In this document: positions 1 to 7,242 of the stretch, in pieces | How the letters are laid out: every line of letters begins with the position of its first letter | Position numbering within the stretch: position 1 is the stretch's first letter | Assembly: GCF_000832985.1 (NCBI RefSeq) | Contig: NZ_CP009920.1 | Location: 4,396,501 to 4,460,500 of the forward strand | DNA: 64,000 nt | From: Priestia megaterium NBRC 15308 = ATCC 14581 | Lineage (GTDB): Bacteria > Bacillota > Bacilli > Bacillales > Bacillaceae_H | Direction of reading: 5' to 3' | Made by a program: the position numbers and the translations under genes | Notes under the pieces: model-generated | The model's input: the letters and a program-made list of their open reading frames with translations, nothing else | Databases searched by the model: none | Told to the model about the DNA's origin: nothing

Positions 1-732
1 ATAAACCTGTCCACTTTTACGATTTTCTTTCTCTTTGAAATTGAAACTAGCTTCAAAATCAAATCCTTTTCTTATGCCCCCAGGGAAATTGATTGTGAAG
101 GCATTCATAACCTCTGTATTATTTAATGTAAGTGCATTTTCCGAAAAACCAGAGTTGTACATAGGTGCATTTAATGCTTTGAATTCTCCTTCTGTTTGAT
201 CAAGATTGGTAGCAGCCACAATAGTTCCACTTGGTTCGAAGAAGCGTTTTGCTCTTATTACATAATAAAAAGAGTTAAAATTCTCATGTGTTACATAAGC
301 TTGTAAATTATTGAAAGTGGGAATATCCTTCTTTTTCTTCTCCACTCCAGGAGAAACAATATCTTGTATTTGTCGAAGAGTAGTTTCGATACCGTTAGTA
401 CTCATATCTAAATAACTGAGAGCAGAAATGATTTTTGGTACATTTATATCTTCTGCTCTTACAGGAATGAATTGTATACCTGCAGAACGTTCTTTTAATG
501 CATTTGTCCATTCTAGAGTGACCATCGGACTTTTTAAGCTGTTTTCAGTAATAAAGTAGAAGAAAAATTGGCATCTTTCTAGTCCTTCATTCATTCTTTC
601 GATAATGTTCTCACCAGGTTTAATTGACCAATCATCATAAAAAACATTATCCTCTCCATAAATTTCTTCTAGCTGATAAGCAATAGGACTAACGATTTCT
701 TTATCTTTGTGTTGATGACTTATAAAAATCAT
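1..732 (-). CDS. TIR-domain protein (3' end outside window)
   Basis: The minus-strand frame is open from the ATG at 732 to the window edge (244 codons, no stop), so the C-terminus is missing. The ATG follows an AAAGGGGGAA ribosome site. Residues 1-120 form a bacterial TIR domain: it opens MIFISHQHKDKEIV, has the box-2-like segment VFYDDWSIKPGENI (30-43), and carries a glutamate at residue 74 (SPMVTLEW) where TIR NADases place the catalytic Glu. After about residue 125 comes a region rich in predicted beta strands that I do not recognise. TIR proteins of this type commonly degrade NAD+ or make signal nucleotides in anti-phage defence; that role here is inference. No ThsA-like partner is visible inside the window. 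Confidence 0.85.
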   Translation of the reverse strand, partial: MIFISHQHKDKEIVSPIAYQLEEIYGEDNVFYDDWSIKPGENIIERMNEGLERCQFFFYFITENSLKSPMVTLEWTNALKERSAGIQFIPVRAEDINVPKIISALSYLDMSTNGIETTLRQIQDIVSPGVEKKKKDIPTFNNLQAYVTHENFNSFYYVIRAKRFFEPSGTIVAATNLDQTEGEFKALNAPMYNSGFSENALTLNNTEVMNAFTINFPGGIRKGFDFEASFNFKEKENRKSGQVY

Positions 733-2530: not shown

Positions 2531-3466
2531 ATGAATAGCTTGCAATTTCAAAAAGTTGTTGCTAGAGATAGAGTGATACATGAAGTTGAGAAGTTAGATG
2601 TTGAATGCAAGAAGAACGATAGCATGGATACAATTTTCAAGATTCTAATGGAAGAAAATTCGAAAGTAGCAGAAGAGATTTTTGAAGAGTATAAGCTTGC
2701 AGGTAAAACATCTCTAAATGTGTTTGAAGTCACTGATTATCCACAACATTTAAACAGTAAGAAAAGCCTGACAGCACATATACAAAAAAAGTTGGGCATT
2801 CAAACAAAAGTGTTAGATGTAAAATTAAATCCTCAGCTGACTCCAGAACCTCAGATATATCATGTTGAGGAAATAGAAGAAGGGCTTCGTATAATTTGGG
2901 TATCCGGTGAGGAAAAAACATATGAGAATTACTATGAGTATACCACTATAGTTAGGCCGAAGTATGTAGTCTCCATTATCCGTTTGGGATCACCGGTATT
3001 CATCGAGGTAAGAGCGGGTTATACTGATTCACTTGCTTACTTTAATTTATTTAAGATACTCCTATCTTCCGATAATAGACCTTTAGATATCAATCATTTA
3101 CCTTTAACGAAGGTTACGGAAAAAGAAGCAGAAGAGATTGCTGAAAAATTAAAAGCAGGTCTACTAGAAGGTGAACATTTAGGTAGTAATGGGATAGGTA
3201 AATATTCTATTTCTGCAGATAGAGACACAAAGGATTTGAGACAGGTAGACGAATACACACAAAATTACAGTGGGAAAAAATATTTGGCTCAGACCTTAAA
3301 TGTTTATTATGAAGACATGGATTCTGGTTACAAAACATATGTTAAGTTTAGGCTAAGTATGAACGGTGGTTTTCAGTTTAAAACCAAAGTTAGTGAAAAA
3401 ATTATTAAAAGGATTTTTGATGTGTTTACCGAAGTAAGATACAAACAACAAGCTAGTGGAGAGTGA
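2531..3466 (+). CDS. Unrecognised protein, first gene of a two-gene module
   Basis: A 311-residue soluble protein, started at the ATG at 2531 because AGGGGGG lies about seven bases upstream. It has no signal peptide, membrane segment or catalytic motif that I recognise. The N-terminal ~70 residues are helical and charged; a middle region (about 110-190) is beta-rich with IVRPKYVVSIIRLGS; the C-terminal third mixes helices and strands (GYKTYVKFRLSMNGGFQFK). The next gene starts 21 bases downstream with its own ribosome site, so the two are probably co-transcribed. The location beside a TIR gene suggests, but does not show, a defence role. Confidence 0.65.
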   Translation: MNSLQFQKVVARDRVIHEVEKLDVECKKNDSMDTIFKILMEENSKVAEEIFEEYKLAGKTSLNVFEVTDYPQHLNSKKSLTAHIQKKLGIQTKVLDVKLNPQLTPEPQIYHVEEIEEGLRIIWVSGEEKTYENYYEYTTIVRPKYVVSIIRLGSPVFIEVRAGYTDSLAYFNLFKILLSSDNRPLDINHLPLTKVTEKEAEEIAEKLKAGLLEGEHLGSNGIGKYSISADRDTKDLRQVDEYTQNYSGKKYLAQTLNVYYEDMDSGYKTYVKFRLSMNGGFQFKTKVSEKIIKRIFDVFTEVRYKQQASGE

Positions 3467-3487
3467 ATTTCAAGAGGAGGGATTTGA

Positions 3488-4336
3488 ATGGGTATTAAGA
3501 CTACCGCAGTGAATATGGTGTTAGAAGAACTAGCTTATAAAGAAGAGCAACGTTTTAATGCTCATCAAATTGCCTTCTTATCTGGACAAAGAGATATAGA
3601 AGAAGTGAACGAATACCTTCTACATCTATCACAAGGGAAATTCGCAAGTCTAATAGCTAAAATAGAGGTACTTTGTGAAGAAAATGATCACCCTGATGCC
3701 AAATATAACCTTAATGAGCCTTTACCTTCACATGAGATTTGTTACATTTGCGGGGATGAATATGTTCCTACTATAGAAAGGTCTCACTTGGTTTTTTACT
3801 TTAAGGATAGTTATATACAGGAGGTAAAAAAAAAAGGGCCGGGTAGTCAAGATGATGATAAAGGTGTAGGGTTAGAGTTACCTGAAATGCGGGAATTTAT
3901 GTACATTCCAGACCTAATTCGCAAAGGAACTCTAGCTATAGAACCAGATTTTAAAGGAGGATTTTTAGTGACAGTTAACCATAATTACGGTAATACTCAC
4001 CAATATGGCGCAATTGATGCAAGAGGGAATAAAGGAAATATAGGACTTGGTGAGAATGTTACAATTACTCAAATACTCAATGAAAATACTGAGATTGCTA
4101 ATTTGACTAGAGAATTACTTAGTCAATTACAGAATGCAAATCTTCCAACCCAACAAAGGACAGAAATTATAGAGGTCGTTAATGCTGCAACAGAGGTCGC
4201 AAATGCAGAGGAACCGAACAAAACTATTTTAAAAAGTCTTGTGCAAAGTGGCAAGGGGCTAATTGCTGCCGCAACAACTTCAACAGCATTAATTGAAGCA
4301 TATAATCAATGGTCTACATTCATTGGGTCCATGTAG
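3488..4336 (+). CDS. Unrecognised protein with CxxC knuckle and effector-like C-terminus
   Basis: A 282-residue protein with AGAGGAGGG before its ATG. Residues 1-70 look like a helical, winged-helix-sized domain. Residues ~80-110 contain EICYICGDEYVP and a nearby SH, a possible partial zinc site. Residues ~165-200 include a Gly/Asn-rich strand repeat (GNKGNIGLGENVTITQI). The end is a helical module (about 200-260) with EEPNKTILKSL followed by an Ala/Gly/Thr-rich hydrophobic segment (LIAAATTSTALIEAY). That tail resembles C-termini I associate with prokaryotic conflict proteins, where a short hydrophobic segment follows a helical pair; this is pattern memory, not a search. It forms an operon with the preceding gene. 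Confidence 0.65.
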   Translation: MGIKTTAVNMVLEELAYKEEQRFNAHQIAFLSGQRDIEEVNEYLLHLSQGKFASLIAKIEVLCEENDHPDAKYNLNEPLPSHEICYICGDEYVPTIERSHLVFYFKDSYIQEVKKKGPGSQDDDKGVGLELPEMREFMYIPDLIRKGTLAIEPDFKGGFLVTVNHNYGNTHQYGAIDARGNKGNIGLGENVTITQILNENTEIANLTRELLSQLQNANLPTQQRTEIIEVVNAATEVANAEEPNKTILKSLVQSGKGLIAAATTSTALIEAYNQWSTFIGSM

Positions 4337-4379: not shown

Positions 4380-4599
4380 TATGTGGGCAAATGTGTTATT
4401 AACTGGAATATGAGGTATCAGACTTAATAAGAATATAAATTTGTAGATGTATATGCTCATATAACAAAATAAAAATGTTTATTTTATGTATTTTCTTTTT
4501 TATAAATATATAAATTTTGAAGGTGCGTATTTAGAAAGGATATGTAAGTTACTCTGAAGAAGTGATATAATGACCCACTACATTGGATGGAGGTACTTT

Positions 4600-5383
4600 A
4601 TGAATACAGCCACTTGGTTTACCGTTCAAAGAATTGATGAAACGACATATGCAATTAGTGAATACGGACATTGGGAAAAAGTGCATTCATTCTTGTTAGT
4701 AGGAGAGAAAAAAGCGGTTCTTGTTGATACTGGTCTTGGGATAGACAATATTAAAAGAATCACAGATCAACTAACTCACTTACCTGTTGAAGTTATTACT
4801 ACTCACGTTCATGTTGATCACATTGGAAGTCATGGAGAATTCGAAAAAATCTTTGTTCATGAAGGAGATAAAGAATGGCTAGTTAATAGAATTGAAGGAT
4901 TATCTATTGAACAAATAAGAAAAGATATAAATAGGGAAATTACACTACCTAAGCCTGCAACATTTAACCCCGATACATACCATCCTTTCCAAGGAGAACC
5001 AACAGGTTTGTTAGAAGACGAGGATAATTATACATTTAGGGAATCGGGAATTGATTATTTACCATACTCCCGGCCACTCTCCAGGACATATATGTATTTA
5101 TGATGCTACCAATGGTTATTTATTCACAGGCGATTTGCTTTATGCTCAAACACCTATCTATGCTTTTTATCCTTCTACTAACCCTGTGGATCTAGTAAAC
5201 TCATTAGAAAAAATATCAAATATAGAAAATATTAATGTTATTTCTGGCTCTCATAATACTTTAGGATTGCACCCTAAAATCTTAGAAGAAGTGAAATTTG
5301 CAGTTAAGTACTTAAAAGAACAAAAACTTACTAGGTTTGGGACAGGAATTCATAAATTTAAAGGGTTTAGTATTCAATTTTAA
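4600..5383 (+). pseudogene. MBL-fold metallo-hydrolase, frameshifted
   Basis: The first part (ATG at 4600, GGAGG upstream) encodes the N-terminal half of a metallo-beta-lactamase-fold hydrolase, including the zinc motif HVHVDHIG. Around 5015-5030 the reading frame shifts: the original frame drifts to an early stop at 5103, while the +1 frame encodes the expected continuation LGNRELIIYHTPGHSPGH, then TGDLLY and the C-terminal SGSHN, ending at 5383. Both halves are otherwise intact and collinear. A single-base indel explains this, so it is a recent pseudogene, a sequencing error, or, less likely, recoding. The substrate of the family is not predictable from sequence. Confidence 0.8.
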
Positions 5384-7201: not shown

Positions 7202-7242
7202 AAAACCCACTTGTTTTTTTAAGAAAAAGATGGGGTTTTTTT
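7202..7242 (+). terminator. Possible terminator/hairpin before the hydrolase gene
   Basis: An imperfect AAAACCC / GGGGTTTT stem with a long A/T loop and a seven-T tail, just upstream of the ribosome site of the next gene. It could mark the right boundary of the accessory stretch or act as an attenuator. Confidence 0.45.

Follow-up and report, generated by a model that had tools for sequence, protein, structure and literature searches.

A mobile two-gene module of Bacillota with a conserved A-tract that may yield two products from its second gene

Introduction

What are two adjoining genes for, at the end of a Priestia megaterium prophage, when one of them has no family assignment and the other only a partial one? 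The pair lies in a 64,000-nucleotide stretch of strain NBRC 15308 = ATCC 14581 (contig NZ_CP009920.1, positions 4,396,501 to 4,460,500), hereafter the window, and it had been singled out from the sequence as an unrecognised two-gene module in a defence-like island and a candidate for an undescribed defence system (the original prediction). RexAB and similar systems are examples of prophage-borne defence cargo. For slippage, which we propose below for the second gene, the main known cases are transposases, dnaX and a gene of a secretion system.

Results

An adjoining gene pair with few family matches

Gene A (2531-3466, + strand) encodes 311 residues from an ATG start preceded by the SD-like AAAAAAGGGGGG, and gene B (3488-4336, + strand) encodes 282 residues, also from an ATG, behind the ribosome-binding site AGGAGG (3475-3480, + strand). 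Both genes are complete, are served by good ribosome-binding sites and lie 21 bases apart, just as predicted, and the features read earlier in the B protein are there as well: a PNKTI motif, a last helix rich in Ala and Thr, a Gly/Asn-rich strand stretch and a CYIC motif. A is the conserved first component, and this copy belongs to type 1 of two related subfamilies. B is, in this copy, an in-frame fusion of two parts: B1 (3488-3825, + strand), which reads as a winged helix plus a zinc-ribbon-like element, and B2 (3836-4333, + strand), made of the Gly/Asn strand repeat followed by a helical tail. Between them runs a tract of ten A's (3826-3835, + strand), our proposed slippery site.

Family searches left A without any match in Pfam, PADLOC and PHROGs at E≤1, and its single NCBIfam match was at chance level (E 0.037, 13.8 bits against a cut-off of 174). 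B matched the PADLOC family PDC-M14B over residues 175-278 only (E 5.7e-10) and phrog_33512, a PHROG of unknown function, over residues 48-116 (E 1e-6), while its best Pfam (E 0.0062) and NCBIfam (E 0.043) matches fell under the curated cut-offs. The claim that the proteins cannot be assigned thus stood for A across four family libraries and had to be qualified for B, parts of which do match. No metabolic or phage structural family matching the pair was found. Profile searches of A, of its second subfamily A', of B1 and of B2 against the PDB gave nothing convincing: A had no match at E≤10 in one search and a best E of 1.5 in another, and the best values were 0.14 for A', 0.42 for B1, 0.16 for B2 and 0.035 for the M14B protein of locus L020 (see below).

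The pair lies in the cargo zone of a prophage

The pair is carried at the cargo end of a 43-kb prophage bounded by 25-bp att direct repeats. The right copy lies in the window (7214-7238, + strand) and the left one outside it (contig position 4360754), at the 3' end of a gene that reads as monooxygenase-like and beside a gene that reads as a tyrosine recombinase (contig 4360850-4362016, also outside the window). Tail, holin and amidase genes run up to the window edge, and from the amidase to the right att site come a TIR gene, the pair, a split metallo-beta-lactamase-fold gene and two GNATs. Inside the same prophage, upstream of the window, we also observed a strongly repetitive ORF rich in Gly, Met and Pro (contig 4372268-4372890). 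The neighbours named in the original prediction were all recovered, namely the TIR gene (TIR_2, E 4.5e-24), the hydrolase broken into two overlapping frames (the metallo-beta-lactamase-fold gene, 4570-5383, apparently frameshifted) and the two GNATs; what did not hold was the island itself, which is the cargo zone of a prophage ending at the att site at 7214-7238 and not a chromosomal island.

The TIR gene encodes 272 residues (- strand, window 1-732 and continuing outside, L002 8414-9232), has a C-terminal half without assignment and is the first gene past the prophage amidase. We rejected it as an operon partner of the pair because it is on the opposite strand and because a small Cys-rich ORF and a gene that reads as lipoprotein-like stand in between; it is possibly a separate piece of defence cargo. 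The small ORF (944-1126), which has the TIR gene on one side and the lipoprotein-like gene on the other, contains two CxxC pairs, is zinc-ribbon-like and has no Pfam match above the cut-off.

B joins a cyclase-associated domain to a domain of a defence candidate

In an alignment of nine B1 rows, C63 and C85 were invariant and C88 was present in eight, and by eye the sequence of B1 reads as a winged helix plus a zinc ribbon. Three B1 copies matched DUF5939 (PF19363) weakly (L019, E 6.7e-4 and 19.3 bits; L018, 2.2e-3 and 17.6 bits; L076, 5.4e-3 and 16.4 bits), all below the gathering score of 22.5, and there was no such match for L077 at E≤0.01 or for the B of the window at E≤1. Searched the other way, the B1 profile matched seven nucleotidyl cyclase-type proteins: two of them (L057 and L060) carry DUF5939 (E 2.5e-20 and 1.6e-20) plus a guanylate cyclase domain, and the other five are ORFs 36-56% identical to L057. 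On this profile evidence, B1 is a distant relative of the DUF5939 of nucleotidyl cyclases. DUF5939 is the N-terminal region of class III nucleotidyl cyclase proteins; B1 has no cyclase attached and occurs either by itself or fused to B2. Another use of the B1 domain is seen in two stand-alone B1-like genes (L075 6355-6738, + strand; L078 6274-6612, numbered on the - strand), which have neither an A gene nor an A-tract at their end; both are weak matches and do not belong to the locus set described below.

The helical tail of B2 had been suggested to be membrane-active. The highest 19-residue Kyte-Doolittle mean in the window copy was 1.05, and a value of 1.6 was reached in one of 17 copies. 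With a tail too weakly hydrophobic in the other 16, this suggestion is not supported, and we rejected the tail as a pore or membrane anchor.

B2 matched the PDC-M14B models in all seven copies scanned (window, L012, L013, L014, L015, L018 and L019; best E 1.4e-4 to 1.1e-11). The likeness lies in the last ~100 residues of M14B, while the N-terminal part of M14B and the zinc-ribbon-type M14A are absent from the A-B loci. Membership of PDC-M14 was rejected since B covers only positions 153-261 of the 267 of the profile and A has no PADLOC match; as a positive control, L020 matched M14B over positions 2-265 and M14A as well. L020 (8503-9754) and L021 (8602-9921) carry the B2-like domain on another N-terminal part, beside a zinc-ribbon gene, the former being PDC-M14 by its PADLOC matches and the latter by likeness. 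L022 and L023 also carry the domain, and in all four loci the B matches were confined to the B2 part, with no match to the A, A' or B1 profiles. Near their M14-type genes, L020 and L021 had no run of at least nine A or T; L021 had one run of eight.

A and B stay together in a thinly spread module

In all, 19 separate loci with A and B were recovered. They comprise the window; Lysinibacillus yapensis (L012), Domibacillus iocasae (L013), Paenibacillus lactis (L014) and P. aquistagni (L015); the viral contigs L004 and L018; and genomes G226 (L019), G606 (L028), G927, G940, G892, G1092, G1034, G891, G1020 and G975 (L048-L055), and G1143 and G452 (L076, L077). Duplicate records of one isolate or contig were counted once, as was the second module copy of G975. 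In that genome the module stands at two places (L055 and L056) with identical B1 and second-part readings, which suggests two related prophages.

Eleven of the 19 loci (L019, L048-L055, L076 and L077) were recovered through B or B1 independently of A, and A lies directly upstream in all eleven, as it does in all 19 overall; its presence in L004, L012-L015, L018 and L028 is no test of linkage because these were found through A. The surroundings range from prophages to a plasmid-like contig and to sites without evident phage genes, so that the proposed check of a conserved adjacency amid variable surroundings was largely borne out. The A gene is open throughout in 17 of the 19 loci; that of L052 has an in-frame stop, and that of G606 (L028) is split over two contigs, with stops in one piece. 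The A proteins fall into two subfamilies of 311-346 (type 1) and 350-372 residues (type 2, A'). Profile comparison relates the two (hhalign E 1.2e-6, probability 90.8, 198 columns), and both show the same A-B arrangement with its tract.

The spread of the module is thin. Within the genus, the pair was present in one of ten genomes, the window's own, and in none of the other nine. At the order level, B matched in 7 of 397 genomes, three with the module (the window's own, G218 and G226) and four with the B2 part only. The B1 profile gave 18 matches in 398 genomes of the class, from which nine module-bearing genomes were kept (ten places, G975 twice) after we dropped the seven cyclase-type proteins (two by Pfam, five by their 36-56% identity to L057) and, by reading, the rhodanese-like L059 and the GTPase-like L058. 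The reverse search with A' matched 6 of 378 class genomes, five with the module plus one with a 78-residue fragment, and a search of the phylum with A matched 2 of 398 genomes. Phage and plasmid records held no relatives of the window's A or B, and the phage records none of the A and B1 of L018 or of the A' of L019.

A conserved A-tract separates two reading frames of B

The most conserved odd feature of the locus is the A10 run at 3826-3835, which the original prediction did not mention and which is new information beyond it. A run of consecutive A's, 7-12 long, occupies the joint between B1 and the second part in all 19 loci, and it is at least nine long in 18 of them (9-12), the exception being L018 with A7; in an earlier set of 17 loci, the tract was at the same place in all, with at least nine A's in 16. 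Runs of at least nine A or T occur 21 times in the 324,520 nucleotides of these 17 loci, 16 times at these joints. Lysine is encoded by AAA in 326 of 478 codons outside the tract, and Lys-Lys pairs by AAAAAA in 11 of 36 cases, so lysine coding alone does not explain the nine-A runs.

The first three copies compared have ten A's each, and B is one gene in the window and two ORFs, the second part in the -1 frame, in the others. Over the 19 loci, the second part is in the -1 frame in 13, in the +1 frame in three (L051, L055 and L077) and in frame in three (the window, L053 and L054); the counts for the first 17 were 12, 2 and 3. In 16 of the 19 loci, then, B1 and the second part are in different frames and B1 stops soon past the tract: the description as a two-gene module is right for the adjoining A and B and too simple for B itself, the parts of which are frame-split in these loci. 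Past the tract, each of the 17 loci keeps exactly one long open frame (143-211 residues), with a stop inside the first 20 codons of both others. All 14 out-of-frame copies among them have the frame of their second part open right from the tract; the chance of this over 30 codons is ~10^-12, a rough figure that treats the copies as independent, which they are not. L076 and L077, two A'-bearing loci found once the slippage hypothesis had been framed, fit it: each has an A9 tract, and the second part is shifted to -1 in one and to +1 in the other.

The B2 profile matched the second part in 14 of the 19 loci, eight of which built the profile and six of which are independent. In L028, L050, L055, L076 and L077 there was no such match, and the name B2 rests there on position and an open frame. 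Given these five loci, and since no strand repeat is seen by eye in the second part of L077, this portion of B may be variable.

In the window, the default product would be the fusion, which in this and the two other in-frame copies needs no slippage; here slippage would instead yield a short form, of 126 residues in the +1 frame or 119 in the -1 frame, and the 126-residue form is within the range of 121-147 of the other copies. A sequencing error of one A in the homopolymer may affect the window assembly, and it would swap the default and the minor product with the conclusion unchanged.

Transcriptional slippage is the favoured origin of two products

Sequence comparison makes it likely that the tract gives rise to two products, and we propose that RNA polymerase would slip on it, so that each locus would make B1 alone and a B1-B2 fusion. 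According to PMC3711429, a poly-A tract can have its effect at transcription, translation or replication, and orthologs that differ in direction predict transcriptional realignment, whereas a fixed direction predicts ribosomal frameshifting. The direction does differ here (-1 in 13, +1 in three, none in three), and the more than seven A's expected at the frame transition for slippage are present in all loci (9-12 A's) except L018 (A7). The main competitor on the translational side is programmed -1 ribosomal frameshifting on A_AAA_AAG or A_AAA_AAA as the source of the fusion. In keeping with it, 13 of the 16 out-of-frame copies are -1 and A_AAA_AAG is in phase in six of these (L012, L014, L018, L028, L048 and L049), but A_AAA_AAG also stands in phase in copies of other states (L077, which is +1, and L053 and L054, which are in frame), and the three +1 and three in-frame copies among the 19 depart from the single direction that frameshifting predicts. 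Moreover, in 17 loci no stimulatory hairpin or SD-like motif was common to all copies: folding z-scores downstream of the tract (mononucleotide shuffles) ranged from -2.78 to 0.88 and were at or below -1.8 in three loci (L013, L049 and L054), and an upstream SD-like motif was found in 4 of 17. RNA polymerase slippage is favoured because of the varying direction and of this lack of a shared signal, and frameshifting is unlikely as the general explanation. Nevertheless, L018, whose A7 is short for transcriptional slippage and makes up exactly the heptamer A_AAA_AAG, fits ribosomal frameshifting better.

Phase variation, in which the length of the tract would flip between cells at the DNA level and switch the long product on and off, seems just as improbable to us as frameshifting. 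Switching by poly-A tracts is among the possibilities given in PMC3711429, homopolymer-linked switching of a phage receptor is reported elsewhere in the literature, and relatives differ in frame state, with no clustering of the states on the B1 tree (five changes against a shuffled mean of 4.8), although that tree is poorly resolved, with one of 14 inner branches well supported. A random phase, however, should produce the three states about equally, yet 13 of 19 copies are -1; a search of viral contigs with the junction patterns of three copies gave no second strain for a comparison of tract lengths. Lastly, B1 and B2 might be two neighbouring genes that became fused in some lineages, with B2 translated from its own start. 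Start codons do exist within B2 in all seven copies examined, and in six of them GGAGG or a close variant precedes an in-frame ATG or GTG 40-46 codons past the tract; but these starts are at least 40 codons in, the earlier ones (codons 8-29, in five of seven copies) lack a clear SD by eye, the B2 frame would have no reason to be open back to the tract as it is in 14 of 14 copies, and the A-tract itself would go unexplained. We consider this reading very unlikely, and return to transcriptional slippage as the preferred one. As an observation apart, GGAGG or a close variant, encoding Gly-Gly, lies shortly ahead of an in-frame ATG or GTG where the strand repeat begins in L004, L012, L013, L014, L015, L018 and the window (3956-3970), and in these seven copies an internal start that would give B2 alone is possible.

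The module as a candidate anti-phage system

Taken together, we think that A and B probably form a single mobile module; most likely it is carried by prophages as an anti-phage system that blocks superinfection, and slippage on the tract would yield B1 and B1-B2. The module is mobile, lies in prophage cargo, is sparsely spread among varying neighbours and shares the B2 domain with a defence candidate; on these features, defence or control of superinfection is the role we consider most plausible, and we lean slightly towards defence as such. One gene set kept together in changing mobile contexts, with A upstream of B in 11 of 11 loci found independently of A and in all 19, is what a defence system is expected to show. 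A PADLOC scan of 100 neighbouring ORFs (99 of the 186 listed, chosen by closeness, plus the TIR gene), made without a control set, gave 75 families, of which the 25 displayed had one member each, and no enrichment of defence genes was evident from it. The pair could instead be a prophage gene set with another role, in lysogeny, lysis timing or host fitness, a view to which we give a rather low probability. It draws on the loci in which the pair closely follows holin/endolysin-type genes, named mostly by reading (L004, L012, L013, L049 and L055), and on the window, where three genes intervene. Yet the pair precedes HNH/terminase-like genes in L018 and L019, lies on a contig with TubZ and replication-initiator genes in L048 and occupies sites without evident phage genes in L051, L053 and L054, contexts that argue against a tie to lysis.

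We suggest that A would recognise a signal of infection, that B1 could be an adaptor binding A or nucleic acid, and that B2, with its strand repeat and helical tail, might be an oligomerising effector. Slippage would then limit the number of effector-bearing subunits that enter the complex, and the module would be safe until triggered.

Discussion

The arrangement in B is like that of IS transposases, of Thermus-type dnaX and of tssM of Citrobacter rodentium, in which, according to PMC3711429 and PMC4256274, an A-tract just before an early stop gives access to a long product in another frame; in IS transposases the direction is also free to change among relatives (PMC3711429). In Citrobacter, the A11 tract of tssM yields two products, and both of them and their ratio are needed, as PMC4256274 reports; by analogy, the module might need both a short B1 and a long B1-B2. 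Unlike these cases, the A-B locus is an unassigned mobile module that carries a domain of a defence candidate, and slippage is putative in it. Within the literature searched, we found no description of the A-B module or of slippage in an anti-phage system and no mention of the terms PDC-M14 or DUF5939; the excerpt of PMC10986495 treats slippage and frameshifting of Lactococcus pseudogenes and no defence system, and that of PMC11100668 mentions frameshifting in passing. Like RexAB-type cargo, with which sequences were compared through PADLOC only, the pair consists of accessory genes near a prophage end beside other cargo (TIR, GNATs).

We tentatively put forward, and at a little less than even confidence, that the pair represents a hitherto undescribed kind of immune module, sparsely distributed in Bacillota and their phages; slippage would set its proportion of effector-bearing subunits, giving B1 and B1-B2 whatever the frame, with a switch point that would have survived frame changes across both A subfamilies. 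If this is true, a putative immune system would dose its effector by slippage. Gene-by-gene pipelines could miss such loci because reading a single frame shows unrelated short ORFs, and a B1-type ORF followed, across an A-tract, by another open frame offers a signature for direct searches.
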